In this document: positions 6,251 to 27,673 of the stretch, piece after piece | Layout of the letters: every line of letters starts with the position of its first letter | How positions within the stretch are numbered: position 1 is the first letter of the stretch | Origin: Tenacibaculum sp. SZ-18 | Lineage (GTDB): Bacteria; Bacteroidota; Bacteroidia; Flavobacteriales; Flavobacteriaceae | Length of the DNA stretch: 64,000 nt | Direction of reading: 5' to 3' | Assembly (NCBI RefSeq): GCF_002813915.1 | Contig: NZ_CP019335.1 | Location: forward strand, 316,888 to 380,887 | Made by a program: the position numbers and the translations under genes | Notes under the pieces: generated by a model | Told to the model about the DNA's origin: nothing | Seen by the model: only the letters and a program-made list of their open reading frames with translations | Database searches by the model: none

Positions 6251-6270
6251 TATAACTCCTGCAAAAATAA

Positions 6271-6300: not shown

Positions 6301-6320
6301 ATAATATATTGATTTCTTGA

Positions 6321-6830: not shown

Positions 6831-6879
6831 CTTTGTTTTAATTTAAATTTTATGTTCTTTTTTCTTGTTAATTATCTAT

Positions 6880-7695
6880 TTATTGATCGTTTGATTCTTG
6901 ATTCTTTTTGTCTTCGTCTTCTTTCTTTTTAGCCGCTTCTTTAGCTTTCTTTAAGGCCTCTTTTTTCTCTCTCAACAATCTTCTTTTTTCTTCTCTAGCT
7001 TTTAACTTAGCTTCACGTTTATCTTTTATTTCCTGAAGCTTTTTTTCTCTATCAGAAAGTTTTTTCTGTTTCAGGGCTTCTTTTTTAGCTTGACGTTGCT
7101 TCGCTGCTTCAGAGAGTTCATTATTACTTAATAATTCTTTTTTAGCAGCAATCTTATCGCGTTTAGCTTGTTGCTTCTGGTCAATATTTATCAACTTTAA
7201 AACTAGTGAGCTAATATCGTGTTTTTTATTAGAATACAACATTATTAATTCACTCGATTTATCAAAAACAAAATCATATTTTTTTCTTGCAGCTATTGTT
7301 TGAACAGCATTGTAAACTTGATCTTGAATTGGTTGAATTAGTTTCTTACGTAAAATATACATATCCCCGTTCGTACCAAAATACAGAGACTCTAACTTCC
7401 TGAAGGCCTGTTGTTTTACTAAGATATCTTCTTCGCGTTCTTCGATAAGCTCTGGAGTAAGAATTGCCTTTTCATTTCCTAAGTCGGTTTTCAATAGCTC
7501 AATAGCCCTAGCCTCTTTATCAAGGTTTGCTCTCCACTTGGCCACTTTATCGTTCAAAGCGTTTTGAGCTTCGATGTATTGAGGTATATTCTGAAGAATA
7601 TAGTCCATATCAATAAAAGCAATTTTTTGATTTTTCTGCGCTGCAACGCTACCTACAATAAGTAAAAGAGCGAATGTTAAAATGTTTTTTTTCAT
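6880..7695 (-). CDS. OmpH/Skp-family chaperone with long charged tail
   Basis: A 271-residue OmpH-family protein. The signal peptide is cleaved near VGSVAAQ, followed by KIAFIDMDYILQNIPQY, the conserved family start. Residues about 25-180 form the Skp-like core. Residues about 180-271 are an extra tail made almost only of K, E, R, A and D, predicted to be a highly charged helix or coiled coil. This tail makes the protein about 100 residues longer than its neighbour. It lies between bamA and the shorter ompH, with 49 bp to the latter, and is probably co-transcribed with both. The tail may bind peptidoglycan, lipopolysaccharide or BamA, but this is inference. Confidence 0.88.
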   Translation of the reverse strand: MKKNILTFALLLIVGSVAAQKNQKIAFIDMDYILQNIPQYIEAQNALNDKVAKWRANLDKEARAIELLKTDLGNEKAILTPELIEEREEDILVKQQAFRKLESLYFGTNGDMYILRKKLIQPIQDQVYNAVQTIAARKKYDFVFDKSSELIMLYSNKKHDISSLVLKLINIDQKQQAKRDKIAAKKELLSNNELSEAAKQRQAKKEALKQKKLSDREKKLQEIKDKREAKLKAREEKRRLLREKKEALKKAKEAAKKKEDEDKKNQESNDQ

Positions 7696-7756
7696 CTTTA
7701 TAATGTGTTTTGAAAAAACCGTGCCAAAAAGCTATACACATCACAAATGTAAGTTT

Positions 7757-10309
7757 TTAGAATTGTCTTCCAATAATAAAATGCGTTTGCCATCCAGATT
7801 TTTCTGTTTCTCCTGGTAAAGGATCAAATCCGTGGGCAAAATCAATACCTAATAATCCGAAAGCTGGCATAAAAATTCTTACACCTAATCCAGCAGATCG
7901 TTTCAATTCAAACGGATTAAAAGTACTAAAATTGTCATAAGCATTACCTGCTTCTAAAAATCCTAGAGTATATATTGACGCAGATGGTTTATCTGTGATT
8001 GAATAACGTAATTCTAACTGGAATTTATTATAGATAGAACCTCCTTCCAACGAGGAAATTCTATTGTTGGCGTAACCTCGTAAACCGACTATTTCTCTTC
8101 CATCTAATTGTCCTTGAGCAATTCCATCTCCTCCAACGAAATATCTTTCAACTGGAGTAAGTCCTAACTCATTATTGTAAGTTCCTAAGTAGCCTAATTC
8201 GAAGTTAGACATCAACACTAGCTTTTTGGCTAAAGAAGTATACCATTTACCTTTTGCAGATAACTTATAGTATTCTAACCAATTGTAGCGATCAGCTAAA
8301 AAGTCTTGACGTTCCTCATCGGTTAGATTATCAGGTTCAGTTAAGTCTTTACCATTCACTAATGAATAAGGGAAAGTTGCTTTTGCTCTCAATGTAAATT
8401 CAGATCCGTAAGTAGGGAAAATTAAACTCGGTCCAGCTGAATTTCTACTGAATGAAACAGTATATGATAAGTTGTTTAAATTACCATTATTTAAGATGGA
8501 ATTAGAATTACCAACTCTATATGGAAAATTATCTAAGGCAATTCTTTGGAAACTTATATTTTGCGCTAAAGTAAAGAAGTCATCTGGCCATTGCAATCTT
8601 TTAGCTAATCCAATTGAGGCTCCTAAAATACCTAAACTTTGGCTTCTATCTACTTGATTTGTTCTAAAGTCAAAACGATACTGATTTGAGAAATAAATAG
8701 AAAATGAAAGTGATTGTGGTTTTTTACCACCTAACCAAGGCTCAGTAAATGATAAACTGTATGTATTGTTAGTTCGACTAGCTTGTAAACGTAAAGATAA
8801 ACTCTGACCATCTCCCATTGGAAGTGGTGTATATGCATCTTTATTAAAAATGTTTCTAATTGAGAAGTTGTTAAACGATAATCCTAACGTACCTATAAAA
8901 GATCCTCCACCAAATCCACCTTGTAATTCAATTTGACTACCTCCTTTTTCTACGACAGAAAATTCAATATCTGCAGTTTTATTCTGATAATCAGGTTTTA
9001 CATCAGGAATTACGTTTGTGTCGAAAAATCCTAACTGTCCAATTTCACGAATAGATCGAATTATATTTTGTCTACTGAATAAATCACCGGGTTTTACTCT
9101 TAATTCTCTATATATAACGTGATCATTGGTCTTATCATTTCCAGCTACAGTTACTTTTCTAATCGTTGCAGGTTCATCTTCTCTAATTCTGATTTCAACT
9201 GTAATAGAGTCGTTTTTAACCTTTGTTTCAACTGCGTTTACTTGTGAAAATAAATAACCGTTATTATGGTATAATGTTTGGATATCTTGTGAGTCTGGTG
9301 TTCCGTCGCCAGAAATTCTTTCTTTTAAGACTTTTCCGTTATAAACATCCCCCTTTTCAATCTTTAAAAATTGGTTTAAGAAATCATCAGTATATTTTTT
9401 ATTACCAACGAAAAGTATATCTCCAAAGCGATATTGCTTACCTTCTTCTATGTCAATTTCTAAGTTAATCGTGTTATCTTCGTTCCATGTCAAACGATTG
9501 TCTAATACACGTGCATCCCTAAAACCTAATTCGCTGTAACGTTCTAAAACATTTTCTAAATCTTCTTTAAAATCATCTTCAATGTATTTCGATGATTTCC
9601 AAAAACGTCCTAAGAATTTTCTCTTAGTGTTCTTCATTAAGCCTCTCAATTTGTTTTGAGATAACGCTTTATTTCCGACGAAATCAATATTTTTAATTTT
9701 AATACGATCTCCTCTGTCAATATGAATATACATGTTAACAGTATTCGTATCGGTCGTATCTCTTTTAGTGTTAAGAGAAACTTTTGTTTTTAAATATCCT
9801 TTATCCGTATATTTTTTCGTGATATAGTTGCGTGTTGTTACAATTAAGTTATCGGTAACTTGTACTCCTTTTTTTAATTCAGTTTCCTTGATTAATTCTC
9901 TGGATTTTGATTTACTAACACCTGTAATGGTCGCTGTGTTCAACTTTGGTAATTCAACTACATCGAATTGTAGATATACTGTATTACCATCGATTTTTGA
10001 AAGATAAACGTCTACAGCACTAAATTGTTTACTTTCATATAACTTTTTGATAGCACTTGTTAATTTATCTCCAGGTAATTTAATAGGTTGTCCTTCAGAT
10101 AATCCTGTGTAAACTTTAACGGTAGATTCTGTGAATTTCTGTAATCCAGTGACTGTAAAACCACCTAAAATATACTCTTTTCCCTTTTCGTAATTAATTT
10201 TACTCGATTCCTTTGGGTTAGGCTGGATAGAATCTTTTGTTGTTTCTTGCGCTATTGAAATTGCCGTTGTAGTGAAGAATAACACTACTAATAAAAATCC
10301 TCTATACAT
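7757..10309 (-). CDS. bamA: Outer membrane protein assembly factor BamA
   Basis: The central BAM subunit, which folds and inserts beta-barrel proteins into the outer membrane. About 850 residues. I start it at the Met that opens MYRGFLLVVLFF, because this gives a clean signal peptide ending SIAQ; an in-frame ATG ten codons earlier (10339) would bury the signal. POTRA domains fill residues about 40-430 and the barrel follows, with the conserved VRGY-like loop seen as GLRGYANN and a terminal F (IIGRQF). The start overlaps the end of uppS by eight bases, suggesting translational coupling. The two ompH chaperone genes follow. Confidence 0.94.
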   Translation of the reverse strand: MYRGFLLVVLFFTTTAISIAQETTKDSIQPNPKESSKINYEKGKEYILGGFTVTGLQKFTESTVKVYTGLSEGQPIKLPGDKLTSAIKKLYESKQFSAVDVYLSKIDGNTVYLQFDVVELPKLNTATITGVSKSKSRELIKETELKKGVQVTDNLIVTTRNYITKKYTDKGYLKTKVSLNTKRDTTDTNTVNMYIHIDRGDRIKIKNIDFVGNKALSQNKLRGLMKNTKRKFLGRFWKSSKYIEDDFKEDLENVLERYSELGFRDARVLDNRLTWNEDNTINLEIDIEEGKQYRFGDILFVGNKKYTDDFLNQFLKIEKGDVYNGKVLKERISGDGTPDSQDIQTLYHNNGYLFSQVNAVETKVKNDSITVEIRIREDEPATIRKVTVAGNDKTNDHVIYRELRVKPGDLFSRQNIIRSIREIGQLGFFDTNVIPDVKPDYQNKTADIEFSVVEKGGSQIELQGGFGGGSFIGTLGLSFNNFSIRNIFNKDAYTPLPMGDGQSLSLRLQASRTNNTYSLSFTEPWLGGKKPQSLSFSIYFSNQYRFDFRTNQVDRSQSLGILGASIGLAKRLQWPDDFFTLAQNISFQRIALDNFPYRVGNSNSILNNGNLNNLSYTVSFSRNSAGPSLIFPTYGSEFTLRAKATFPYSLVNGKDLTEPDNLTDEERQDFLADRYNWLEYYKLSAKGKWYTSLAKKLVLMSNFELGYLGTYNNELGLTPVERYFVGGDGIAQGQLDGREIVGLRGYANNRISSLEGGSIYNKFQLELRYSITDKPSASIYTLGFLEAGNAYDNFSTFNPFELKRSAGLGVRIFMPAFGLLGIDFAHGFDPLPGETEKSGWQTHFIIGRQF

Positions 10310-11054
10310 CTGTACCAATCTGTTCACTTGTCTTTCCAAATCTACGTTCTCTGTTTTGATAGTTTATTACTGCGTCGAAAAGATCATCTTTTCTAAAGTC
10401 TGGCCATAAAACATCTGTAAAGTACAGTTCTGCATAGGCCATTTGCCACAATAAGAAATTGCTGATTCTCTGTTCGCCACTTGTACGAATCATAAGGTCA
10501 ACATCGGGCAAATTAAATGTATATAAATGATTATTTATAATTTTTTCATCAATTTTTTTTGGGTCGATTTCGTTATTAACAACTTTTTTAGATATGTTTT
10601 TGATAGCATTAACAATTTCTTCTCGACTGCCATAACTTAAAGCAAATGTTAGGGTTATGGTACTATTATTTCTTGTTTCGTGTATTACTTCTTGAAGTAC
10701 TCGTTGTGCTTTTTTAGGTAAGTTTTCAATAGCTCCGATACTATTCACTTTAATTCCATTTTTGTGAAAATCTGGAAGTTCTTTTTTAAGCGAGTTAATC
10801 AGTAAACTCATTAAAGCATCTATTTCTAGTTTTGGACGATTCCAGTTTTCAGTTGAAAAAGCGTAAAGTGTTATATATTTGGTTCCTAAATCTGCAGCTC
10901 CTTCCACAGATTGTCTAACCGCATCTAAAGCATTGCGATGTCCAAAAACGCGTTGCATGCCCTTTTTCTTTGCCCATCGTCCATTACCATCCATAATTAT
11001 GGCTATATGATTAGGGACTTTATGTAGGTTTATACTTTGTAGTTTTTCATTCAT
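10302..11054 (-). CDS. uppS: Isoprenyl (undecaprenyl) diphosphate synthase
   Basis: A cis-prenyltransferase that makes the C55 lipid carrier for peptidoglycan and polysaccharides. The 250-residue length is normal. IIMDGNGRWAKK (Asp22) is the diphosphate and Mg-binding motif, and TLYAFSTENWNRP and DLMIRTSGEQRISNF are the other family signatures. It lies three bases after the DUF6089 gene and overlaps bamA, so it belongs to one translationally coupled envelope operon. Confidence 0.96.
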   Translation of the reverse strand: MNEKLQSINLHKVPNHIAIIMDGNGRWAKKKGMQRVFGHRNALDAVRQSVEGAADLGTKYITLYAFSTENWNRPKLEIDALMSLLINSLKKELPDFHKNGIKVNSIGAIENLPKKAQRVLQEVIHETRNNSTITLTFALSYGSREEIVNAIKNISKKVVNNEIDPKKIDEKIINNHLYTFNLPDVDLMIRTSGEQRISNFLLWQMAYAELYFTDVLWPDFRKDDLFDAVINYQNRERRFGKTSEQIGTDV

Positions 11055-11057
11055 AAA

Positions 11058-11729
11058 TCATTCGTTATCAGCGTAGCATGCCGGTCTTCCAAAAGTATAT
11101 ACTAATGAGAATCCCGTAAAAGTATAAAAATCATTACCATTACCTCCAAAATTTAGCGAAGTAATTTTATCCGTAGTATAATCAATATCATCTGTAAAAG
11201 TCAGTCTTACAGCTGATTCAAAAGCAAAAGCTAAATGGTCAGTTATTCTTCCTTTAACCCCGATTCCTATTGGTATTGCTAAAGAAATATCACTTGTAAA
11301 TTGAACATTCCCTCCAACGACAGACTCAGGAGTTTTGTAATTATATGCTGCTACTTGAGCCAGTATATAAGGAGTAAAAGTATGACCCAAAGAACGAACA
11401 TTGTATTCAAAAAAGTTGAATTCTAATCCAGCTGCTAATTCGTGAATTGTATTGTTAAAACTAAAGTTCCTTTGTTCCCTTAATATGTCATCAGATTCAT
11501 TATCATTACCGTTTACAGGAAGTGTATTATAATTCGCTCGAATAGCGATTCTTGGATTAAAATTGTATTTGTAAACTAATCCTCCCGCAAATTTATTTGG
11601 AAAAATATAATTAGTCCTTCCTATATCCCCAATAAAATTAGAGCCCCCTAAGAAAACACCAACCTCATGGATTTGAGAATACGAAACACTTGTTAAAAAT
11701 GTAAATAATATTAATATATACCTCCTCAT
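11058..11729 (-). CDS. DUF6089-family outer-membrane barrel protein
   Basis: A 223-residue protein with a signal peptide (cleaved after SVSYSQ) and a mature sequence of amphipathic beta strands that begins EVGVFLGGSNFIGDIG, typical of the DUF6089 family found next to uppS and bamA in Flavobacteriia. It is predicted to be a small outer-membrane barrel of unknown function. The gene ends three bases before uppS. A -7 box at 11753-11746 just upstream makes it the first gene of the DUF6089-uppS-bamA-ompH transcript. The tail is Cys-containing (PACYADNE). Confidence 0.83.
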   Translation of the reverse strand: MRRYILILFTFLTSVSYSQIHEVGVFLGGSNFIGDIGRTNYIFPNKFAGGLVYKYNFNPRIAIRANYNTLPVNGNDNESDDILREQRNFSFNNTIHELAAGLEFNFFEYNVRSLGHTFTPYILAQVAAYNYKTPESVVGGNVQFTSDISLAIPIGIGVKGRITDHLAFAFESAVRLTFTDDIDYTTDKITSLNFGGNGNDFYTFTGFSLVYTFGRPACYADNE

Positions 11730-11745
11730 TGTTAGAAATAGCGTG

Positions 11746-11753
11746 CAAATATA
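11746..11753 (-). promoter_or_regulatory. -7 box for the DUF6089-uppS-bamA operon
   Basis: The minus strand reads tatatttg, a perfect TAnnTTTG, 17 bp before the ATG. No matching -33 TTG was found. Confidence 0.5.
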
Positions 11754-11838
11754 TGGAATTGAATTTGCTTTAAAAAGTTAATAATCTGTCTTTTTGATTA
11801 ACTTCTTTTTCAGAGAATTATTGTAGTGAAAGTACCTT

Positions 11839-12771
11839 TTAAGAAGAGGCTTGATTTCTTATGTCTTCACCCCACAATAATTTTTTGCGTAATGTTTTTA
11901 AATATGATTGATCTTCTAATTGTATAGTTTTAATGGTAAAAGGTGCTTTTTCAATGTATATTTTGGTCTCTTGTGGAACCGTAGTTATTCTTGAATCTAG
12001 AGAAATTAGAAAATCTTTCTCTCTTGCACTAATCTCTAATTGAATAGTTGTTTCTTCTGGAATTACAATTGGTCTTGCGTTTAAATTATGCGGAGCTATC
12101 GGAGTAATAATTAAACTTGTTGAGTCTGGTAAAATTACAGGTCCATTGCAGCTTAATGAGTAACCTGTTGAACCAGTTGGTGTCGCAATAATTAAACCAT
12201 CTGCCCAATAATTGGTTAAATACTCTTCGTTTAAGTATGTTTTTATACCAATCATGGATGTGGTATTTCTTCGAGCAATAGTTATTTCATTTAAGGCAAA
12301 GTTTACATCAGAGAATGTATTGGTTTCAGGTGTTGTTTTCAATTGGAGTAATGTTCTTTCTTGAACACTAAATTTTCCCTTCATTAAAAGATCAATGGCT
12401 TCTTTTATTTCTTTTTTCTGAACAGTTGCCAAAAAGCCCAATCTACCCGAATTTATTCCTAAAATTGGAATTTTTAAATCTCTGACATAGGTAACTGCTC
12501 GTAATATTGTTCCATCACCACCAACTGAAAATAAAGCATCAAATGAATCTGATAAATCGTCAAAACTAGCAAATACAGGATATTTTTTGTTTAGAAGATC
12601 GTGTTGAGAAAGTAGTTCGTAAAATTCTTTTTCTATAAATACCACGACGTTATACTTTTCTAATGCCTTTATTAAGGCCTTGATTTCTTTCTCGCTCGAT
12701 AAGGAGTAAGATTGCGCGTATATTGCTACTTTTTTCAATCGGTCTTCTATTAAATTTAATTTACATGTCAA
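11839..12771 (-). CDS. nadK: NAD kinase
   Basis: A cytoplasmic enzyme that phosphorylates NAD to NADP. The GGDGT motif (residues about 84-88), the NSGRLGFLAT segment and TPTGSTGYSLS are the three diagnostic motifs, in the right order. The ATG used gives 310 residues and overlaps the upstream CBS gene by 11 bases. The first 11 residues are not typical, and a TTG at codon 12 (before KKVAIYAQ) would give the usual family start, so the true start is uncertain. The overlap suggests coupling with the CBS gene. Confidence 0.93.
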   Translation of the reverse strand: MTCKLNLIEDRLKKVAIYAQSYSLSSEKEIKALIKALEKYNVVVFIEKEFYELLSQHDLLNKKYPVFASFDDLSDSFDALFSVGGDGTILRAVTYVRDLKIPILGINSGRLGFLATVQKKEIKEAIDLLMKGKFSVQERTLLQLKTTPETNTFSDVNFALNEITIARRNTTSMIGIKTYLNEEYLTNYWADGLIIATPTGSTGYSLSCNGPVILPDSTSLIITPIAPHNLNARPIVIPEETTIQLEISAREKDFLISLDSRITTVPQETKIYIEKAPFTIKTIQLEDQSYLKTLRKKLLWGEDIRNQASS

Positions 12772-13420
12772 GATATTTCTTGAAGTAGTTTGCTCTATCC
12801 TTAAGTTCTTCTAAAAACATATCATCTTCTAATTGAGAAATAACGTTATAATCATACCTTCGGAAGGTTTGAATAATCTCATTCATTTCCTCAGAAGAAA
12901 TTTTTAATGTAATTTCAACATTATCTACCGTTTCTCTTGAAACATAGAGCCCCAATAATTTAGCTTTATTGCTTTCTACAATTTGTGCAACTTGACTAAT
13001 GGTAAAATCTGCTTTCGTTTTTGAAACAATTAACGTTATATTATCGTTATGCATAAACGGACTATCAGCGAAAACATCTAGAATATCTCTTAAGTCATAA
13101 TATCCAAGGTATTCTTGTTTTTCATCCAAAACTGGAATGATATTACAGTCGTTTTCCGCAAAAAGAGAAATTAACTCTAGTAAAGAAGATTTTTTATCCG
13201 CATGAAAATGTTGAATCAAATGAATATATTCATGTAAAGCAGTGTCTTTGTTTTCTATGGTTTGGATGTCGTCCTCAGCGAAACATCCTATCAACTTATT
13301 GTCCTTTACAATTGGTATATGTGTAATGGGTAAATGTTCACACAATTGTAATGCACTACTTACAGAATCTTCTGAAGTAAGTGCTTTAATTTCTTTTAAA
13401 ATGTAGTCGTTAATATTCAT
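12761..13420 (-). CDS. CBS-domain protein
   Basis: A 219-residue cytosolic protein with a tandem pair of CBS motifs (residues about 10-130), which usually bind adenine nucleotides, followed by an ACT-like C-terminal region (TLIVSKTKADFTISQVAQIV). It always seems to precede nadK in Flavobacteriia, so an adenylate-sensing role linked to NAD(P) supply is plausible but unproven. Its stop overlaps nadK. A TAnnTTTG box lies only about six bases upstream of the ATG, implying a leaderless or nearly leaderless mRNA. Confidence 0.82.
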   Translation of the reverse strand: MNINDYILKEIKALTSEDSVSSALQLCEHLPITHIPIVKDNKLIGCFAEDDIQTIENKDTALHEYIHLIQHFHADKKSSLLELISLFAENDCNIIPVLDEKQEYLGYYDLRDILDVFADSPFMHNDNITLIVSKTKADFTISQVAQIVESNKAKLLGLYVSRETVDNVEITLKISSEEMNEIIQTFRRYDYNVISQLEDDMFLEELKDRANYFKKYLDM

Positions 13421-13425
13421 AGATA

Positions 13426-13433
13426 CAAACGTA
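13426..13433 (-). promoter_or_regulatory. -7 box of the CBS-nadK transcript
   Basis: The minus strand reads tacgtttg (TAnnTTTG) about six bases upstream of the ATG at 13420. The expected transcription start falls on or next to the start codon. Confidence 0.45.
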
Positions 13434-13476
13434 AATATTCATTGATACGAATATAGTTTAAAAACTTTTAATAGGT

Positions 13477-13484
13477 TATTTTTG
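13477..13484 (+). promoter_or_regulatory. -7 box of pdxJ
   Basis: tatttttg fits TAnnTTTG and lies 18 bp before the pdxJ ATG, divergent from the CBS promoter in the same 82-bp gap. Confidence 0.5.
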
Positions 13485-13502
13485 TATTCTTAAAATACAG
13501 AG

Positions 13503-14216
13503 ATGACAAAATTAAGTGTTAACGTTAATAAAATAGCTACCTTAAGAAATTCAAGAGGAGGTAATGTGCCGAATTTATTAAAGGTAGCGTCAGATATTCA
13601 AAGTTTTGGAGCTAATGGAATTACAATTCATCCAAGACCAGACGAGCGTCATATTCGTTATCAAGATGCTTATGATTTAAAACCAATTGTTTTTACAGAG
13701 TATAATATAGAAGGTAATCCTATTAAAAAGTTTACAGACTTGGTTCTAGAGATAAAACCAACTCAAGTGACTTTAGTTCCTGATGGAGAAGATGTACTTA
13801 CCTCAAACGCTGGTTGGGATACTGTTAAGCATCAGTCATACTTGCAAGAAATAGTTGCTGAATTTAAAAATGCAGGTATAAGAACTTCAATTTTTATAGA
13901 AACAGATTTAAGATTAATTGAAGCTGCAGCAAAAACAGGTGTGGATAGAATTGAGTTGTATACGGAAGATTTTGCAAAGGAGTTTGAAAGAGGGAATAAA
14001 GATGCTGTAAATCCTTACACTCAAGCTGCTGTTTTGGCAAATGAATTAGGTTTAGGTATAAACGCAGGACATGATTTAAATCTAGAGAATATTGAATTCT
14101 TTAAAAATAACATTCCAAATTTAGCAGAAGTATCTATAGGTCACGCGTTAATTTCTGAAAGTATTTATCTTGGGTTGGAGAATGTGGTAAATATGTATTT
14201 AGATCGATTGAAATAG
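13503..14216 (+). CDS. pdxJ: Pyridoxine 5'-phosphate synthase
   Basis: Condenses 1-deoxy-xylulose 5-phosphate with 3-amino-1-hydroxyacetone phosphate to give pyridoxine 5'-phosphate, the last ring-forming step of DXP-dependent vitamin B6 synthesis. 237 residues, the usual length. The phosphate and substrate motif [14 protein letters not shown], the VTLVPDG strand, [10 protein letters not shown] and a C-terminal [11 protein letters not shown] segment all match the TIM-barrel family. The downstream hydrolase starts two bases after the stop, so the two are co-transcribed. Confidence 0.95.
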
Positions 14217-14218
14217 TC

Positions 14219-14989
14219 ATGGAGAATATCTTACATTCTAAAGTGGTTGGCGAAGGAAAACCATTTTTAATTCTACATGGTTTTTTCGGAATGGGAGACA
14301 ATTGGAAAAGTTTGGCAAATAAATTTTCAGAGGAGAATTTACAAGTACACTTAGTTGATCAGAGAAACCACGGAAGGAGTTTTCATTCGGATGAATTTAA
14401 TTATGATGTATTGGTTGAAGATTTAAAGAATTATATCGACTATCATAAATTAGAAAAGGTAATTTTATTAGGTCATTCAATGGGAGGAAAGACCGCAATG
14501 TTATTTGCTACAAGATATCCTGAGTTAATTGAGAAGTTATTAGTTGCGGATATAGCTCCAAAGGAATATCCACCGCATCATCAAGATATAATTAGAGCTT
14601 TAAACTCTATTGATTTTGCAATTCATAACTCACGTAAACTAATTGATGAAAAATTGTCGGAGCTAATTCCTGAAATCGGTGTTCGACAGTTTATTCTAAA
14701 AAACACCTATTGGGTTGAGAAAGGTCAACTAGGCTTTCGTTTTAATTTAGAATCGTTAACTGAGAATTATAATGAAGTAATTGTAGGTTTACCAACAGGT
14801 GCAACCTTTGAAGGTGAAGTTCTATTTTTAAGAGGAGGGAAGTCACAGTACATTCTAGATCAAGATGCTCCTTTGTTAAGCGCACATTTTTCAGATTATA
14901 AGCTTGTTACTGTGCCCAATGCCGGACATTGGCTACATGCAGAAAATCCGAAAGATTTTTATAAATTGGTGATGAACTTTATACAATAA
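14219..14989 (+). CDS. Alpha/beta-fold hydrolase (YbfF-like esterase)
   Basis: A 256-residue cytosolic alpha/beta hydrolase. The oxyanion strand LILHGFFG, the DQRNHGRS motif, the nucleophile elbow GHSMGGK (Ser87) and the catalytic His237 in NAGHWLH give a complete triad arrangement, closest to the YbfF/ABHD11 esterase group. The substrate is unknown. It sits two bases after pdxJ, a pairing common in Flavobacteriia, without evidence that it acts in B6 synthesis. A bidirectional terminator follows at once. Confidence 0.86.
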   Translation: MENILHSKVVGEGKPFLILHGFFGMGDNWKSLANKFSEENLQVHLVDQRNHGRSFHSDEFNYDVLVEDLKNYIDYHKLEKVILLGHSMGGKTAMLFATRYPELIEKLLVADIAPKEYPPHHQDIIRALNSIDFAIHNSRKLIDEKLSELIPEIGVRQFILKNTYWVEKGQLGFRFNLESLTENYNEVIVGLPTGATFEGEVLFLRGGKSQYILDQDAPLLSAHFSDYKLVTVPNAGHWLHAENPKDFYKLVMNFIQ

Positions 14990-15022
14990 AAAGCATCTTG
15001 AAAAATAACAAGATGCTTTTAT
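14989..15022 (+). terminator. Bidirectional terminator between convergent genes
   Basis: A perfect 12-bp stem aaaagcatcttg/caagatgctttt with an 8-base loop and T-runs on both strands. It serves the hydrolase (plus) and the charged periplasmic protein (minus). Confidence 0.9.
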
Positions 15023-15043
15023 ATTCAAGGAATTTTCAAAAAT

Positions 15044-15724
15044 CTATCCCCTTCTGTCTTCTCTTCTTTCTATTCGATCTTCGATCATTTCCTTTTTATC
15101 TTCAACGATTTCTGTCTTTGTTTCGGCGATATCTGCTGCCATAGTTTGAGCAAATTCTTGAAGTAGTTTAGAGTTTGTAATTAATTGATGTTTTCCAGGC
15201 GCTCTTTTTGCTAAGAAATTATATTTTTTAATTGCTTTCATAATTTCTTTTTGACGGTCAGTTCTTTTAATTTGTCTTGTTAAGTCTCTTCTGTCATCTT
15301 TTTTGTCCCTTCGGTCATCTCGTTTGTCGCGAACATCATCTCTGTAAGCTCTTCTTCTACTGTTCGTGTGATTGGAAGCTTCTCTCTGTGAACGACCCAA
15401 CTCTCTTCGACTTTGTTGTAATTCCTTTTGATCTTGTCTGATTTTACGTTTACTTTCTTTGATTTCACGTTTCATATCAGATAAAATTTCAGCTTTTAGT
15501 GATTTCACAAGTTTATTATCATGTTCAATAAACGCTTCCTCAAATGCATTAATCTTGGTTTTAAAACTTTTGAGTTGTGCAATGTCTTTTTTCAACTGTT
15601 TTTGATTCAAGAGCATTGCTTTGTTGTTATCAATTGCTTCTTTAGTATTACCTAAATTTTGGGCGCTTAAAGAGCTAGTTGCTGCAACTAAAACTCCTGC
15701 TAAAATGGATTTAATTACTCTCAT
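15044..15724 (-). CDS. Secreted, highly charged coiled-coil protein
   Basis: 226 residues with a signal peptide cleaved after SSLSAQ. Residues about 30-115 are predicted to be a long alpha-helical coiled coil rich in K, E and Q. Residues about 120-150 are built of R, D and K repeats (RDDVRDKRDDRRDKKDDRRD). The C-terminus repeats the same theme (EDRIERREDRRG). No known domain is recognised. A periplasmic location follows from the signal peptide. The very dense salt-bridge pattern resembles single alpha-helix (SAH) segments, which act as rigid spacers, but this is inference. It stands alone between a terminator and terC. Confidence 0.65.
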   Translation of the reverse strand: MRVIKSILAGVLVAATSSLSAQNLGNTKEAIDNNKAMLLNQKQLKKDIAQLKSFKTKINAFEEAFIEHDNKLVKSLKAEILSDMKREIKESKRKIRQDQKELQQSRRELGRSQREASNHTNSRRRAYRDDVRDKRDDRRDKKDDRRDLTRQIKRTDRQKEIMKAIKKYNFLAKRAPGKHQLITNSKLLQEFAQTMAADIAETKTEIVEDKKEMIEDRIERREDRRG

Positions 15725-15786
15725 AATCTAACTTGTTTTTTAATAAGACAATAAAAATGTAAAATGGTTTAATTAAATAAATAAAG

Positions 15787-15816
15787 AAGCCAGTATAATT
15801 ATATACTGGCCTTTTA
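15787..15816 (-). terminator. terC terminator
   Basis: A gccagtata/tatactggc stem with a four-base loop, 18 bp past the terC stop. T-rich flanks are present on both strands. Confidence 0.75.
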
Positions 15817-15833
15817 TTATTTTTTTCACGAAA

Positions 15834-16637
15834 CTAGTTTTCACTATTCTGTTCAGCGAATATTTTCTTTTGATAACGTCCTTGAACAATGTCAGTAATT
15901 ACTAAAATCACAATTACAAAGTAGAAAGTTGTTTTACTCATTGGTTCAATTGGGTTTCCAAATAATTTAATATGGGCTAAGTGGCCACCTTCTGTTACTA
16001 ACATAATTCCAACTACGAGTAATATGAATAGTCCTAGTACCTCATACATTCTGTTTTTAGCCAAGAAAATTGAAATTTTATCAGCTAAGAAAAGCATTAA
16101 AAGTCCACTTATTACGATAGCAATAGCCATAACAATAAAAGCAGTCGTTGAATTTTCAATTTCACTAGTCAAACCAATGGCTGCTAAAATAGAATCGAAA
16201 GAGAATACTAAATTCATAATAACAATACTTACAATGGCAGCATTTGCTGATTTAGTTCTTTTTCCGTCACCTTCCACATTATGATCTAAGTCTTTTATAG
16301 AAATCATATGCCAAATTTCTTTAATTGCAGTGTAAATAATGAATCCACCTCCAGCTAATACAATTAAACTATGACCGTTGAAAGCAAATTTCACAACATT
16401 ATCAATTCCTCCTGATAGGAATGCAAAAGGCTCTTGAAAGAAATCAATAATAGAAACCAAAACAAAAAGTAAAACAATACGTAATCCAATGGCGATTAAA
16501 ATTCCTGTTTTACGAACGCGTTTACGCTCTTTTTCTGGTGCTTTTTTAGATTCTAAAGAAATGTATAATAAATTATCGAATCCTAATACAGCTTGAAGCA
16601 TTACAAGCATTAATAGAGTAAAAATGATTCCAACCAT
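15834..16637 (-). CDS. TerC-family integral membrane protein
   Basis: 267 residues with about seven membrane spans. The acidic membrane motifs GFDNLLYISL (residue about 20) and FSFDSILAAIGL (residue about 145) are the TerC hallmarks thought to bind divalent cations. The family is linked to tellurite resistance, and its manganese-export members load or protect secreted metalloproteins. No tellurite operon surrounds it, so a housekeeping Mn/Ca role at the membrane is more likely. It is monocistronic. Confidence 0.88.
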   Translation of the reverse strand: MVGIIFTLLMLVMLQAVLGFDNLLYISLESKKAPEKERKRVRKTGILIAIGLRIVLLFVLVSIIDFFQEPFAFLSGGIDNVVKFAFNGHSLIVLAGGGFIIYTAIKEIWHMISIKDLDHNVEGDGKRTKSANAAIVSIVIMNLVFSFDSILAAIGLTSEIENSTTAFIVMAIAIVISGLLMLFLADKISIFLAKNRMYEVLGLFILLVVGIMLVTEGGHLAHIKLFGNPIEPMSKTTFYFVIVILVITDIVQGRYQKKIFAEQNSEN

Positions 16638-21715: not shown

Positions 21716-22077
21716 GAGTCTTAACAGAACAAGAACTACATAACTTAGCCATGAACATTGCTGGTAAAAAGTTAGAAGAAATGGGTTATGAATTTGTTGC
21801 AGTAAACAGCGAATTGAAAAAGCATCCTCAATTTGTTCTTTTCAAAAAAGGGGAACGTACAATTTTTGTTTTAGTGAAAGCTACAAATAACCTTCAAAAT
21901 CCAAATGATTACGATACTATTTGGATGGAAACTTTTAAAGCTCATGCAAAAGAACGCAACGCAGAGGTTTGGTTCGCTGGTGTTGGTTTGGCAAATGCAG
22001 AGAGTATTGATTTGCCTGTTTTGAAGGATCAACCATATTATGTTGCCTTTGAAAACTTCTTAAAATTAACTAGTTAG
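21712..22077 (+). CDS. Uncharacterised conserved Flavobacteriia protein
   Basis: A 121-residue cytosolic protein, translationally coupled to the helicase through an ATGA overlap. The pattern LKKHPQFVLFKKGERTIFVLVKA looks like the core strands of an alpha/beta fold with some resemblance to restriction-endonuclease-like folds (a hydrophobic strand ending in VxxVKA), but the Asp and Glu of a nuclease site are not clearly seen. The family is recognisable across Flavobacteriia, where I recall some copies being labelled as Na-translocating NADH-quinone reductase subunit F, without support here. Coupling suggests a role beside RNA helicase activity. Confidence 0.7.
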   Translation: MRVLTEQELHNLAMNIAGKKLEEMGYEFVAVNSELKKHPQFVLFKKGERTIFVLVKATNNLQNPNDYDTIWMETFKAHAKERNAEVWFAGVGLANAESIDLPVLKDQPYYVAFENFLKLTS

Positions 22078-22184
22078 CAGTTTTTACTATGTAATTTAGG
22101 TGGATTTGTTATCCAAATATGTTGATTTTTAGGCTTTTGATACAAAAAGGGGCGAAAACCTATGAAAATCAATGAATTGTGTCT

Positions 22185-22192
22185 TATCTTTG
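22185..22192 (+). promoter_or_regulatory. -7 box for the 33-residue peptide
   Basis: tatctttg fits TAnnTTTG and lies 29 bp before the ATG at 22222. No clear -33 TTG with 17-22 base spacing was found. Confidence 0.5.
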
Positions 22193-22221
22193 CACTGGGA
22201 TTATTTTAAATTATTAACATC

Positions 22222-22323
22222 ATGGGGAAATTATTACTTAAAAGAGTAAATAGTTTTTTTAAGAAGTTGTTTACAACTTTATCTGAGTTTGGAAGCGGAG
22301 CTAGCTACGCAATCAGACATTAA
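22222..22323 (+). CDS. 33-residue cationic amphipathic peptide
   Basis: A short ORF with its own -7 box and a strong terminator 26 bp after the stop, forming a compact transcript of about 190 nt. The peptide starts MGKLLLKRVNSFFKKLF and ends with a Gly/Ser-rich, aromatic stretch and RH. Net charge is positive, and residues 3-20 would form an amphipathic helix. Such a layout occurs in membrane-active peptides, antitoxin-less type I toxin genes and small secreted modulins. No family is recognised. The transcript could also act as a small RNA. Confidence 0.45.
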   Translation: MGKLLLKRVNSFFKKLFTTLSEFGSGASYAIRH

Positions 22324-22349
22324 AAAAAACAAAACTATTTTACGAAATT

Positions 22350-22384
22350 CACCTACTATTAGAAAAATAGTAGGTGTTTTTTTT
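22350..22384 (+). terminator. Strong terminator of the small-peptide transcript
   Basis: A perfect 11-bp stem cacctactatt/aatagtaggtg with a 5-base loop, then eight T residues. Confidence 0.92.
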
Positions 22385-22849
22385 GTTTGATATAACAATC
22401 CATTTACTTCATGACATAAATAGTTGTACACTTTTCGAGTAATTACGTATACTGAGTCTAGTGATGTAGGTTTCAAATTAATTGAAAACTATTGTTCTAG
22501 GTAAGGTTCAGGAATACATTCTGAATCTTTAGAAGTTAGATTGTATTACATAAGTGGGACATAACCTCAAAAATAATTATTGATATCGGACAAAAAATTT
22601 TAGAACGATAATCTCTTTATTATCATTCCGATGCGATTTAGCCATCCAAGGAAAGTCTGGTGAACTGATCTTTAACAAAGAGAAATCCTTTTCTGATTTG
22701 TAAATTATAATGAAAATTATTTGCTGAGTCTTTTGAGATGCCTGTTTGCATTGCAAGAAGTCAGTTTATATTTCTTTATAAAACTATATTTAGAAGAGCA
22801 TGTAGTACCTGGTTTACAAAAACTTTTTGGTGTAATTATCAATGATTGG
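22385..22849 (-). other. Gene-poor stretch with possible coding relics
   Basis: No full gene is visible. On the minus strand a 37-codon ORF (22751 to 22638) reads like a protein tail (KDSANNFHYNLQIRKGFL). A second frame just upstream reads through KPGTTCSSKYSFIKKYK. Stops interrupt each. I read this as eroded genes downstream of the peptide-modification cluster, but chance is possible. Confidence 0.25.
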
Positions 22850-24121
22850 TTAGTTTTTAACTTCTAGTATTTCTAGAAGCACATATTTATCCATAACAAA
22901 TGAGATTAATTTTGATTTTAATTCTTCGGAATTCATGTCTTTTAGAAAATCTTCATCTTTACATAGTTCGGTATGTAATTCTTTTATAGATGTAGGGGTT
23001 TCAAAATATAATATTATAGCTAACCAATCTTTTATTTCTTCTTTTTGTAATGAACCGTTCTGTGGTAATGAGTAAGAAAGAAAGTATTTTTCTTCTTCAT
23101 TAATTATTGCTACATTTTTACTCAGAGAGAATCTAGTTTCGAAAATATCATTTATTGAAACTGTTGAAAGCCAGTCGTAAATTCTAAACAGATTGTTCAT
23201 TCTTTCCACTGAAAAATCACATTCGAACTCTTCTTCTGGAAACGTTGCTTTTAAATTTTCGATTAAATCATTGTAATAAGTTGGAAAGTGATATTTTAAT
23301 CTAGCTTCTAACTGTTCACAAGCGAAGATTGATTTTTTCGCATACCCAATACAATGAACATAACTAGATGAAACTGGTACAGTATGAAAATTGATTACTT
23401 GGGAGAAATCTGAATCTACCTTGTTTAAATAGTATGATATAGGAATCTTTTTCTTTTGAGCTATTGCAAAACCAAGTTGTTGCTCAAAAATAGTATTGAA
23501 GATGCCAATATCTATTGTATTTAAGAGATGCTCGTTTTTATGTATGAAATCAAAGGCTCTGTCTTTTAATTGTTTAAAAAATGAATAATTACTTCCGCCA
23601 ATAATTCCAGCATTAAAGGCTTGTATGTTTTGATTTTGATAAAGTACGTTTATGAGTTCAGTAGGAATCCAATCAAATCTTTTCAGAATTTCATTAAATG
23701 CATCTTGATAAGCTGGGAAATTGACTTCTAAATTCTGAGTAAATAATTCTGAAGAGGTTAATTCAGAATCGAATTTTCGCCAGATATAAACATCTGTATC
23801 CGCATGCAAAAACGGTTTATCCTGCTGTGCATAAGTAACGATTTTTCCAAGTGCCCAAAGTTTTGGGTTGTAAGAGTTAATTTCCTCCAGTGTAACATGT
23901 ACTTTTGTGTATGGAAGTTTCAATTGATCTAATAAAAGTTTTTTTCCGTGAGTGTCAGTGTAAAGCTCTACTTCTGGATAAAACTCTTTAAATGATAAAC
24001 AACTTAAAGCTTGACTGAAGAAAGAATATTTCTTTTTTAACCATCCGCCTTTATATCTTGAATTTGGGTCATCTGATTGATTCATGCTTGGTTTAGACCA
24101 AAAGCTTTGAATTATTTTCAT
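22850..24121 (-). CDS. DUF6734-like GT-A glycosyltransferase, putative RiPP-modifying enzyme
   Basis: 423 residues, cytosolic, no signal peptide. The N-terminal part (about 1-270) looks like a GT-A fold: an opening strand with IIQSFWSKP, a DxD-like metal motif HADTDVY (Asp108 and Asp110) and a FNAGIIGG motif at 169-176, typical of sugar transferases. This matches my memory of the DUF6734 family, but was not searched. The last 90 residues (from about 335) have a beta-strand pair, a short helical segment and a winged-helix-like end (SIKELHTELCKD and LLEILEVKN), which resembles a PqqD/RiPP recognition element. It lies 78 bp downstream of the GG-leader peptide gene, with a hairpin between. Likely role: adding a sugar to that peptide. 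Confidence 0.6.
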   Translation of the reverse strand: MKIIQSFWSKPSMNQSDDPNSRYKGGWLKKKYSFFSQALSCLSFKEFYPEVELYTDTHGKKLLLDQLKLPYTKVHVTLEEINSYNPKLWALGKIVTYAQQDKPFLHADTDVYIWRKFDSELTSSELFTQNLEVNFPAYQDAFNEILKRFDWIPTELINVLYQNQNIQAFNAGIIGGSNYSFFKQLKDRAFDFIHKNEHLLNTIDIGIFNTIFEQQLGFAIAQKKKIPISYYLNKVDSDFSQVINFHTVPVSSSYVHCIGYAKKSIFACEQLEARLKYHFPTYYNDLIENLKATFPEEEFECDFSVERMNNLFRIYDWLSTVSINDIFETRFSLSKNVAIINEEEKYFLSYSLPQNGSLQKEEIKDWLAIILYFETPTSIKELHTELCKDEDFLKDMNSEELKSKLISFVMDKYVLLEILEVKN

Positions 24122-24148
24122 AATTTAATTTGGAATATATAACAGAAT

Positions 24149-24178
24149 ATGAGGTTCTTATAAATATAAAAACCTCAT
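24149..24178 (-). promoter_or_regulatory. Intercistronic hairpin between precursor and modifying enzyme
   Basis: The outer stem atgaggtt/aacctcat continues through one mismatch on plus (C-A), which becomes a G-U wobble in minus-strand RNA, into ttat/ataa with a 4-base loop. The minus RNA therefore has a 13-bp stem. No strong T-run follows on the minus strand, so it may act as a partial terminator or RNA-stabiliser that makes more precursor than enzyme. Confidence 0.55.
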
Positions 24179-24199
24179 TGTATTTACTTTGCGGTTGGT

Positions 24200-24430
24200 T
24201 TATTGCCAGCAGAATAACGCCGGGTTAGGTTTATAAATGTATAATCTTCTTCCAGAACTCGTAGTTGGGCAACCTTGTTTAAATGCCCAGCCTGCTGTAT
24301 TCCCAACTCCACCACAAATGATGAATGAACAATTTCCAGTAAATGATCCATCGTAACCACCAATAATAGTTTTTGTTTCTTTTTTACTTAGAACTGTCGC
24401 TTTAATCTGTTTTAAAATGTCTTTTTTCAT
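24200..24430 (-). CDS. Double-glycine-leader peptide, putative RiPP/bacteriocin precursor
   Basis: 76 residues. Residues 1-25 fit a bacteriocin-type leader: a basic start (MKKDILKQ), then LSKKETKTIIGG, matching the LSxxExxxIxGG consensus cut by C39 peptidases. The 51-residue core has four Cys (34, 39, 54, 74), eight Ser/Thr, including TTSS at 56-59, and many Gly and aromatic residues. Two disulfides plus a sugar on Cys, Ser or Thr is the glycocin pattern. No peptidase or exporter gene lies nearby. No TAnnTTTG box was found upstream. Class and product are inferred. Confidence 0.6.
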   Translation of the reverse strand: MKKDILKQIKATVLSKKETKTIIGGYDGSFTGNCSFIICGGVGNTAGWAFKQGCPTTSSGRRLYIYKPNPALFCWQ

Positions 24431-24859
24431 GATTTGATTGATTTAAATGTTACCTACTCTTAAGCTTTTCGGTTTCCGCTAAATGTGAAATATTAGTTTA
24501 CAGACATAACTTCTTTGGTCAGAATTGCGCAATTTGTTTTGATTGATTTACATTGAAATCAATTTACTTATCAAAATAAATAGAAGTTAAAAAGATATTT
24601 TCAAGCGACTGGGAGGTCAATTTTCATTCAAATCTTTCATAACTCTTTCTGAAGGGACATCACCTAATTACTTATGAGTATTCCTTTTGTTTCCTTAAAT
24701 GTAATAGAAAAGAAGTCAGATATTTTAAGGAGAAAGGTTAAAATTAATCACGCATACGTTTTCGTGTTAATAACTTTGATAAGATAGACATCGTTCTAAA
24801 CTAAAAAAGCTCACGAAACTATTTCGTGAGCTTTTTTTAATATATGAGTAGATTAGACT
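24431..24859 (+). other. Gene-poor stretch upstream of the precursor
   Basis: No full gene is visible. A minus-strand frame ends LGDVPSERVMKDLNEN at about 24618, after an in-frame stop, and reads like the tail of a lost gene. A 37-codon plus ORF at 24674-24787 lacks support. The right end holds the polA terminator. Confidence 0.25.
24803..24838 (-). terminator. polA terminator
   Basis: A long perfect stem (aaaaaagctcacgaaa and its complement) with a short loop and T-runs on both strands, 22 bp after the polA stop. Confidence 0.92.
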
Positions 24860-27673
24860 TTAATGTGCTTCTAACCAGTTTGTACCTAATCCAATTTCTA
24901 CATCTAAAGGAACAGAAAGTTTAAATGCATTTTCCATTTCTTCTTTAATAATAGGTTTTATTGTTTCTAGTTCATCGTTATGAGCATCAAAAACCAATTC
25001 ATCATGAACTTGCAATAACATTTTAGATTTGAATTGTTCTTGTTCAAATCGCTTTTGAATATTAATCATGGCAAGTTTTATAATATCTGCTGCACTACCT
25101 TGAATTGGCGCATTTACGGCATTTCTTTCAGCTGCACCTCTAACAATAGCGTTTCTTGAATTTATATCTTTTAAATAACGCTTTCTACCTAATATAGTTT
25201 CAACATAACCATGCTCTCTCGCGAAGTCTACTTGTTGCGCGATAAAGTTCTTTAATTTCGGATATGTTTCATAGTACGCGTTAATCAATTCTTTTGCCTC
25301 TGATCTAGATAAATTTGTTTGATTACTTAGTCCAAACGCAGAAACACCATATATAATTCCGAAGTTTACTGTTTTCGCATTACTACGTTGTTCACGTGTA
25401 ACTTCATCTAAAGACACATTGAAAACTTTAGCTGCAGTGGATGCATGAATATCTTCTCCATCTTGGAAAGCTTTAATCATTGTTTCCTCTTCACTTAATG
25501 CAGCAATAATGCGTAATTCAATTTGAGAATAATCTGCTGCCAATAATGTATAATCTTTATCCTTTGGAATAAATGCTTTTCGAACTTCTTGTCCTCTTTT
25601 TGTTCGAATTGGAATATTCTGTAAGTTCGGATTGTTAGAACTTAATCTTCCAGTTGCTGCAACTGCCTGTGCATATACGGTATGAATTCTATCTGTTTTT
25701 GGATTTAATTCATTAGGTAGTGCATCAACATATGTACTTAATAATTTTTTACATTGACGATATTCTAGAATGTCTGCTACAATTTGATGTTCTTTCAAAG
25801 AAGATAATACATCTTCTGCTGTAGAATATTGACCAGTTTTTGTCTTCTTGGGTTTGTCTACTAATTTTAATTTTTCAAATAAAATTGGACCTAATTGTTT
25901 TGGTGAAGCAATATTGAATTCTTCACCTGCTTGCTCATATATTTTCTGTTCTAAAGAAGTGATATCTGAAGAAAGTTCTTTTGAAAACTCTTTTAGGAAA
26001 TCTGTATTTAGATTGATTCCTTCAATTTCCATATTCGTTAAAACCGAAACTAGAGGCATTTCAACATTTGTAAACAATTCAGTTAATTTTCCTGATTCGA
26101 GTTCTTTAGTGAAATGATTTTTCAACTGTAAAGTAATATCAGCATCTTCAACTGCATATTCTGTTTGCTTATTTAATTCAACGGTTCTCATAGAAAGTTG
26201 ATTCTTCCCTTTTTTACCAATCAAGTCTGTAATTGGAACGGGTTGATAGTTTAAATACGTTTCAGAAAGTATATCCATATTATGACGCATGTCAGGATTG
26301 ATCAGATAATGAGCAATCATGGTATCGAATAACCTACCTTTTACAGGCATATTATAGTTTGATAAAACTTTTATATCGTACTTAATATTGTGACCAATCT
26401 TTTCAATGTTTTCAGCTTCAAAAAATGGTCTAAACATTTCTAAAACTTGTTGTGTTTCCTCTTGATTTTCTGGGAAAGCAACATAATATCCTTTTCCTTC
26501 CTCCCAAGAAAAAGCAATTCCAATTAATTCAACTTCTAATGACTTTAAACCAGTAGTTTCTGTATCAAAACAAACTGATTGTTGGATCATAAGTTTGTCT
26601 AATAATAACTTTCTAGAAACAGGTGTGTTTACCAATTGATAGAAATGTGAGGTGTTAGCAACTGTTTTAAATCCATTGATGCTTTCTACCGTGGCATTTC
26701 CAGCACCAGGAGTAGCAAACAAATCAAATTGTCCAGATGTACTTTCCGTTTGTTGTGGTTTAGTATCAGAAATTGATGTAGAACTCTCTTGAGAGAATGT
26801 TTTTAAGAAATTATCTGTTAATCTTCTAAATTCTAATTCAGCAAAAATTGCTTTCGTTTTTTCAATATCGGGTTGCTCAAAAATAAGTTTGTCTTGTTCC
26901 AGTTCAACAGGAACATCAAGCATAATTGTAGCTAACTTTTTAGAAAGTAAACCTAATTCTTGATTAGCTTCAACCTTCTCTTTCATTTTTCCTTTTAGCT
27001 CATGAATATTTTCAAATAAACCTTCCATAGAACCATAAGCGGCTAGAAACTTTTTAGCTGTTTTTTCACCAACACCTGGTAATCCTGGAATATTATCAAC
27101 AGAGTCTCCCATCATTCCTAAGAAGTCAATTACTTGCTCAGGTCGTTCAACTTCGAATTTTTTCTGTACTTCTTCAACTCCCCATTTCTCATATCCATTT
27201 CCCATTCTTGGAGGACGATACATAAAAATACTATCAGACACGAGTTGAGCATAATCCTTATCTGGAGTTACCATATACGTTTCTAATCCTTCTTTCTCTG
27301 CTTTCTTTGCTAAAGTTCCAATAATATCATCAGCTTCAAATCCTTCTTTAACAATCGCAGGAATATTCATTGCTTGTAGGATTTGTTCAATATAAGGAAC
27401 AGCAATCCTAATAGCTTCTGGAGTTTCTTGTCTATTTGCTTTGTATTCAGGAAAAATTTCAACACGATCTGCACTACCACCTTTATCAAAACAAACAGCT
27501 ATATAGTCAGGTTTTTCTTTTTTGATCACATCTAGTAATGAGTTTGTAAAACCTAGAATAGCTGAAGTGTCCATTCCTTTAGAGTTAATTCTTGGATTTT
27601 TTATGAAAGCATAATATCCTCTAAAAATTAAAGCATACGCATCTAATAAAAAAAGTCTTTTTTTGGTAGTCAT
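24860..27673 (-). CDS. polA: DNA polymerase I
   Basis: 937 residues with three domains. Residues about 5-290 are the 5'-3' exonuclease (flap nuclease), with LLDAYALIFRGYYA and GDSVDNIPGLPGVGEKTA. Residues about 340-520 are the 3'-5' proofreading exonuclease, with all three metal motifs kept (CFDTETTG, HNIKYD and YAVEDAD), so proofreading should work. Residues about 560-937 are the polymerase (DYSQIELR, the O-helix RSNAKTVNFGIIYG, and QVHDELV). It repairs DNA and removes RNA primers. Single gene with its own terminator, divergent from the serine hydrolase. Confidence 0.97.
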   Translation of the reverse strand: MTTKKRLFLLDAYALIFRGYYAFIKNPRINSKGMDTSAILGFTNSLLDVIKKEKPDYIAVCFDKGGSADRVEIFPEYKANRQETPEAIRIAVPYIEQILQAMNIPAIVKEGFEADDIIGTLAKKAEKEGLETYMVTPDKDYAQLVSDSIFMYRPPRMGNGYEKWGVEEVQKKFEVERPEQVIDFLGMMGDSVDNIPGLPGVGEKTAKKFLAAYGSMEGLFENIHELKGKMKEKVEANQELGLLSKKLATIMLDVPVELEQDKLIFEQPDIEKTKAIFAELEFRRLTDNFLKTFSQESSTSISDTKPQQTESTSGQFDLFATPGAGNATVESINGFKTVANTSHFYQLVNTPVSRKLLLDKLMIQQSVCFDTETTGLKSLEVELIGIAFSWEEGKGYYVAFPENQEETQQVLEMFRPFFEAENIEKIGHNIKYDIKVLSNYNMPVKGRLFDTMIAHYLINPDMRHNMDILSETYLNYQPVPITDLIGKKGKNQLSMRTVELNKQTEYAVEDADITLQLKNHFTKELESGKLTELFTNVEMPLVSVLTNMEIEGINLNTDFLKEFSKELSSDITSLEQKIYEQAGEEFNIASPKQLGPILFEKLKLVDKPKKTKTGQYSTAEDVLSSLKEHQIVADILEYRQCKKLLSTYVDALPNELNPKTDRIHTVYAQAVAATGRLSSNNPNLQNIPIRTKRGQEVRKAFIPKDKDYTLLAADYSQIELRIIAALSEEETMIKAFQDGEDIHASTAAKVFNVSLDEVTREQRSNAKTVNFGIIYGVSAFGLSNQTNLSRSEAKELINAYYETYPKLKNFIAQQVDFAREHGYVETILGRKRYLKDINSRNAIVRGAAERNAVNAPIQGSAADIIKLAMINIQKRFEQEQFKSKMLLQVHDELVFDAHNDELETIKPIIKEEMENAFKLSVPLDVEIGLGTNWLEAH

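Follow-up and report, generated by a model that had tools for sequence, protein, structure and literature searches.

A GG-leader, Cys-rich peptide and a predicted RRE-guided DUF6734 glycosyltransferase form a two-gene cassette in Tenacibaculum sp. SZ-18

The question addressed here is what is made by a pair of genes in Tenacibaculum sp. SZ-18, one coding for a small GG-leader peptide and the next for an enzyme of the DUF6734 family. The two genes lie 78 nt apart on the minus strand of a 64,000-nt stretch of contig NZ_CP019335.1 (hereinafter the window), and had been read in an earlier note, from the sequence, as a minimal glycocin-like system. Our analysis indicates that the pair is probably a cassette for a ribosomally synthesized and post-translationally modified peptide (RiPP), in which the enzyme, a predicted GT-A glycosyltransferase with an appended RiPP recognition element (RRE), grips the leader of the Cys-rich precursor and glycosylates its core. 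That the enzyme is likely to decorate its neighbor follows from the adjacency of a leader peptide to a predicted sugar-transferring enzyme with a leader-gripping domain. The pair, its co-occurrence, the invariant residues and the even cysteine counts were established by sequence comparison; the GT-A and RRE folds are predictions from models.

The 423-residue enzyme with its HADTD and FNAGIIGG motifs was recovered as an open reading frame (ORF) just as the earlier note had described it, and the Pfam search suggested there assigned residues 1–288 to DUF6734 (PF20508; 8.3e-105, 350.7 bits, cut-off 27). It is the sole DUF6734 match in its genome, a single contig of 4.02 Mb. The model of the enzyme (pLDDT 95) displays a GT-A glycosyltransferase fold closest to glycogenin and LgtC, and hence GT8-like, with structural matches spanning the whole domain and the DxD present. 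GT8 and GT6 enzymes are the nearest structural neighbors, with 10–14% identity to glycogenin/LgtC over the aligned part. The proposed GT-A fold is thus supported by model and structure comparison; the non-glycosyltransferase fold that the note had named as fatal to its idea was not obtained. The invariant residues of this domain include H106, D108, D110, N170, G172, G175, G176, Q214, H256 and K262, with the DxD, the NAG-GG glycines and a His-x5-Lys motif all invariant. These features are also typical of GT8 enzymes, and the spacing of the His and Lys is that of glycogenin/LgtC. The likeness is one of fold only: PF01501, the GT8 family, gave no match to the enzyme up to an E-value of 1. PF00535 was likewise not matched, DUF6734 being the only family to pass its Pfam cut-off, and sequence searches against the PDB gave no useful match (one was empty and the other returned SegB weakly, E 0.84).

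The earlier note had overlooked the C-terminal domain of the enzyme, as well as the invariant core Tyr1 and the putative regulatory elements upstream that are described below. Modeled alone (pLDDT 92.7), the C-terminal region is predicted to combine a β-sheet with a winged three-helix unit, as in RREs, and its best structural matches are mostly RREs, namely TbiB1, lasso B1, NisB, MibB and PqqD (8hkr and GATOR1 rows, also present in the VIA-align lists, were not used). RREs hold leader peptides. A Pfam search of the domain gave no match. In profile comparisons, it reached a probability of 93.9% against the C-terminal parts of 12 other DUF6734 proteins (500–560 aa) and 0.3% against those of 32 others (437–483 aa), with the two groups matching each other at 95.7%; a shared origin of the C-terminal domains across these groups is therefore only partly supported.

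The pairing recurs well beyond this genome. In a survey of 148 loci, representing 118 distinct DUF6734-like proteins, all 20 distinct proteins scoring above 500 bits (hereinafter the clade enzymes) are preceded by a GG-leader peptide whose end lies no more than 100 bp upstream, compared to none of the 98 others. The latter comprise 78 proteins at 150–500 bits and 20 weaker ones, some of them fragments, with less than 500 nt of upstream sequence in L051 and L091; a GG-like peptide lies farther off in two non-clade loci, at 156 bp in L033 and 314 bp in L101. The 500-bit line was set on a profile built from the relatives of the window enzyme. A tree was built from the first 300 residues of 97 of these 118 proteins, omitting the shorter and weaker ones; it places the 20 clade enzymes on one branch (support 100/96). 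Among control ORFs of at least 200 aa in L001–L058, only 3 of 408 have a GG peptide upstream (4 of 405 with a shorter search window), and these peptides look like precursors from neighboring clusters. The closest enzyme found is that of the Tenacibaculum locus L001 (87% identity), and two successive peptide–enzyme pairs occur in L007, L008 and L194. Thus, pairing with GG-leader peptides, which the earlier note had proposed to look for in other Flavobacteriia, holds for every clade enzyme, the reverse of the never-pairing outcome that it had set against itself, and the minimal two-gene form is supported as well.

The window peptide matches no Pfam family, scores 14.2 bits against TIGR04149 (GG_sam_targ_CFB; cut-off 25) and matches TIGR01847 only below threshold. 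Judged by comparison with its homologs, it is a real gene, since it is conserved at the protein level (83–95% identity to P0121–P0123) and GG peptides stand directly upstream of all clade enzymes; the ORF, its GG leader and its four Cys are confirmed on the minus strand. With two disulfides, the unmodified core has a calculated mass of 5534.55 Da. We compared 19 distinct precursors, 18 from the pairing survey and the second peptide of L194, which share kinship and are not 19 independent events. L−12, E−8, K−6, I−4 and the GG are invariant in the leader, and the core sequences differ widely. The first core residue is Tyr in 19/19 precursors versus 0/28 other GG peptides (those starting with MK or MN, with at least one Cys, from loci of more than 7 kb, near-copies retained). 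The Cys count is even (2, 4 or 6) in all 19 cores versus 15 of these 28 controls. An alignment of 16 precursors has two invariant Cys columns, a Tyr close to the C-terminus at 80% and, Tyr1 aside, no invariant Ser, Thr or Tyr column. As the sole invariant hydroxyl residue in the alignment, Tyr1 is the best candidate acceptor, or could alternatively serve recognition. The TTSS stretch singled out by the earlier note is present in the window core but is not conserved among relatives, which is why it was rejected as the sugar acceptor. The even Cys count suits disulfide pairing and would also be compatible with S-glycosylation; its use as a disproof of the latter was withdrawn given orniglycocin, described in an excerpt of PMC12457901 as having eight Cys, two of them glycosylated.

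In the proposed mechanism, the RRE-like domain would grip the leader of the precursor and the GT-A domain would transfer a sugar to the core, where Tyr1 is the best candidate. The core cysteines would pair in disulfides, and a C39 exporter encoded elsewhere would cleave after the GG and export the product, which may have a secreted role, e.g., as a bacteriocin or signal. A more specific version, which we put forward tentatively and hold to be rather less likely than its negation, is that of a new Bacteroidota RiPP class, in which the RRE-fused glycogenin-like transferase O-glycosylates Tyr1 and C39 cleavage frees a disulfide-knotted peptide with an N-terminal glycosyl-tyrosine. With this reading, DUF6734, so far without a known function in Pfam, gains a proposed role and RiPP biosynthesis a GT8-like fold, in a two-gene, single-enzyme system with leader recognition and sugar transfer fused in one protein. 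Such a system would be an attractive entry point for glycosylating peptides and for mining Bacteroidota genomes and, if it operates as proposed, a new route to sugar-bearing peptides in bacteria.

The kinship with glycocins assumed in the earlier note was not supported. Glycocin glycosyltransferases of the SunS/GccA type belong to GT2 (PF00535); the window enzyme is a DUF6734 protein rather than one of this type, and descent from the glycocins was rejected on this ground, the TTSS stretch being unconserved besides. The cassette shares with sublancin, glycocin F, thermoglycocin and orniglycocin a leader (here of the GG type), a Cys-rich core, a dedicated peptide glycosyltransferase and a C39 exporter in the pathway. 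It differs in its DUF6734/GT8-like enzyme, RRE-like domain and invariant core Tyr1; further, the window has no peptidase-containing ATP-binding transporter (PCAT) in the gene cluster, and, in those Tenacibaculum cassettes that were read, the exporter is encoded at a separate site. We predict that it works like a glycocin system with an enzyme from another family, i.e., as an RRE-guided peptide glycosyltransferase. Glycogenin, which glucosylates a Tyr, and LgtC share its GT-A fold and DxD but, beyond their low identity, come without an RRE or a precursor peptide. Glycocins are characterized by glycosylation on Ser, Thr or Cys, and the thermoglycocin precursor is without a GG, which is thus not universal among them (PMC12457901, in excerpt). 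RRE–glycosyltransferase fusions, in a putative RiPP setting, are mentioned in silico by RRE-Finder (PMC7470986, in excerpt), and the fusion family is named as PF00535 (PMC12710340, in excerpt); this would set them apart from a DUF6734 (GT8-like) protein whose RRE-like domain is C-terminal and which has a single precursor next to it, but some overlap may exist. Tyr O-glycosylation does exist in a RiPP, the Streptomyces lanthidin cacaoidin, whose glycosyltransferases are, in contrast, placed in GT-2 and GT-4 (PMC8068269, in excerpt). Bacteroidota GG-leader clusters with radical SAM (rSAM), LanC and PCAT genes (TIGR04149; PMC10352776, in excerpt, where glycosyltransferases and GG motifs are mentioned for Bacteroidales clusters) resemble the cassette in GG leaders and PCAT plus HlyD export, and the DUF805b RNA element discussed below also precedes GG peptides in L019. 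Unlike them, the window cassette has a precursor below the TIGR04149 threshold and neither rSAM nor LanC. Our literature search found no paper on DUF6734, PF20508 or DUF805b, and, among the matches listed, no mention of "GT8 family" in the literature on Bacteroidota RiPP precursor-peptide glycosyltransferases.

The nature of the transfer is where other explanations have to be weighed. The enzyme might glycosylate a core Cys, as SunS does in sublancin, instead of Tyr, Ser or Thr: the GG leader, the Cys-rich core, the adjacent glycosyltransferase and the two invariant Cys columns would all suit this, and an even Cys count accommodates two glycosylated Cys, as in orniglycocin (PMC12457901, in excerpt). 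We nevertheless regard a Cys linkage as unlikely, given that the enzyme is not a PF00535 protein, that the even Cys counts suit full disulfide pairing and that several relatives have VKOR-thioredoxin genes along with the cassette. The consistent pairing, the tandem duplicated pairs and the RRE-like domain, together with the LanC, LanB, rSAM-SPASM and C39 genes that adjoin DUF6734 relatives, point to a RiPP enzyme and make it still less likely that the DUF6734 protein glycosylates a surface glycan or glycoprotein, with the peptide a mere neighbor that leaves the cell without modification, as a class II-type bacteriocin. The great distance in sequence from solved glycosyltransferases, with no useful PDB match, would also fit a catalytically changed GT-A fold that modifies the peptide with another group, such as a sugar phosphate or a nucleotide; against the invariance of the DxD, the NAG-GG glycines and the His-x5-Lys, this appears very improbable.

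Table 1. Features of the cassette and its upstream region in the window.
Feature	Positions	Strand	Basis
Precursor peptide gene, 76 aa	24200-24430	-	ORF list; homologs; 19 distinct precursors compared
GG leader, 25 aa, MKKDILKQIKATVLSKKETKTIIGG	24356-24430	-	part of precursor gene
Core, 51 aa, 4 Cys, Tyr at core position 1	24203-24355	-	part of precursor gene
DUF6734 enzyme, 423 aa (predicted GT-A glycosyltransferase; RRE-like domain at the C-terminus)	22850-24121	-	ORF list, Pfam, model
GT-A (GT8-like) domain, residues 1-292	23246-24121	-	conservation, structure comparison
RRE-like winged-helix domain, about residues 329-423 (~95 residues)	22853-23137	-	modeled alone; RRE matches
Predicted hairpin in peptide–enzyme gap, -14.5 kcal/mol	24149-24178	-	folding prediction
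DUF805b RNA (Rfam RF02914), 37.6 bits, gathering score 35.6	24451-24482	-	Rfam; 20 nt upstream of peptide start codon
Palindrome AATTGCGCAATT, core TTGCGCAA	24523-24534		comparison of clade upstream regions

For a glycosylated peptide with a GG leader, export would be provided in trans. As the earlier note had stated, no C39 gene is local (none of the five C39 matches of the genome falls in the window), and export in trans, as it had proposed, by a C39 exporter from another part of the genome is plausible, because the search uncovered a PCAT in L065 (G000:C1, about 40.6–42.8 kb) that is 75% identical to the PCAT directly behind an Aquimarina cassette (L003), with the HlyD at 52%. Three of the five matches lie in long ORFs, one in the L065 VKOR protein, and one is short and broken; two of the long ORFs are taken as PCATs, that of L066 by Pfam and that of L065 by full-length identity, and the third (L067) aligns with them at 26–28%. 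Eight relatives in all have a PCAT beside the cassette, which is followed by PCAT and HlyD in L003, L004 and L006 and by VKOR, PCAT and HlyD in L005, L007 and L008, likewise in L194 (Pfam) and L193 (by eye). L022 has a VKOR gene, with no PCAT found in the locus; L001, L002 and L009 gave no match to the VKOR, PCAT or HlyD proteins within 17 kb, and inspection by eye revealed none near the L189–L192 cassettes. C39 matches were found in 15/15 searched genomes (14 when G035 and G868, with the same matches, are counted once; the genome of L005 is left out), that in G061 being weak (E 2.6e-4, 70% complete).

The L065 region (G000:C1:33000-52000, positions 5039-13297) is an export operon in which genes for a C39 PCAT, HlyD and VKOR-thioredoxin stand with those for at least four GG-leader peptides that contain Cys; no modifying enzyme was recognized there by eye. 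Four of these peptides have L−12 in common with the window leader, along with K or R at −6 and a polar −7. L066 (G000:C1:1755000-1774000, positions 7790-16410) is a lanthipeptide-type operon with LanB, LanC-like and C39 PCAT genes (Pfam) and luciferase-like and second LanC-like genes (by eye).

Upstream of the peptide, the DUF805b sequence is found in 15 of the 20 clade regions (13 exact to the pattern and two variants); the pattern was not found upstream in L003–L006 and L022. It also occurs ahead of GG peptides in L019, L023, L031 and L049. When the window was scanned along with seven loci, scores above the Rfam cut-off were obtained only for the window, L007 and L019; the genome has three sites over it, including that of the window. 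The element is preceded by TTGCGCAA in the same 15 regions, in 13 of which it forms a perfect 12-bp palindrome, changes in one arm being matched in the other. TTGCGCAA is also present in L019, L031 and L049 and was not found in L065; among the genome's other DUF805b sites, the two that were read, L149 and the weaker L152, have no such palindrome in the preceding 110 nt. The palindrome is possibly an operator, and its occurrence with DUF805b ahead of the GG peptides of L019, L031 and L049 suggests that GG-leader genes share a regulon. A hairpin in the peptide–enzyme gap is predicted in all 18 of the 20 relatives with a gap of more than 20 nt, with differing sequences, and possibly acts as a partial terminator.

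The pair is flanked by polA (24860-27673) and by a small gene adjoining a DEAD-box helicase (polA and helicase identified by eye). Within Tenacibaculum, 10/97 genomes have any match and 6/97 a full-length one; the cassette is downstream of polA in all six, with one extra gene between in G072 and G080. Matches to polA were obtained in 95 genomes, and 30 polA loci were read; in L163, L165, L170 and L175, polA is followed by a uracil-DNA-glycosylase-like gene without a cassette (by eye; family by Pfam). The pair therefore has the look of an accessory cassette that occupies a fixed site. No ORF of at least 100 aa is listed at 22077-22850 of the window, where L001, L002 and L009 carry the uracil-DNA-glycosylase-like gene. 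More broadly, DUF6734 occurs in 16/395 genomes of a phylum sample, 17/397 of a family sample and 42/348 of the genus of G121; a phage search gave no match and a plasmid search two distant genes. Neighbors of the non-clade DUF6734 genes include LanC-like genes (L010, L016), LanC, luciferase-like and LanB genes (L033), rSAM-SPASM (L018), VKOR and PCAT (L014), and VKOR, PCAT and HlyD (L019), which supports DUF6734 being a RiPP-modifying family.

A few further observations concern these neighborhoods. Between the tandem pairs lies a protein of about 288–306 aa (L194 8084-8950; L007 9205-10125), the L194 copy of which has no Pfam family. In L019, a DUF6625 protein (6826-7995), from a family of unknown function, stands in a RiPP context, in one gene row with the DUF6734 enzyme and GG peptides. 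Fragments resembling non-ribosomal peptide synthetase condensation domains (by eye) lie directly upstream of the DUF6734 and LanC-like genes in L016 (2462-7867). Finally, TonB-receptor, SusD and SusE genes (Pfam) precede the peptide–enzyme pairs in L194 (346-6048), and similarly in L007 and L193 (by eye), with a possible link to uptake or immunity.
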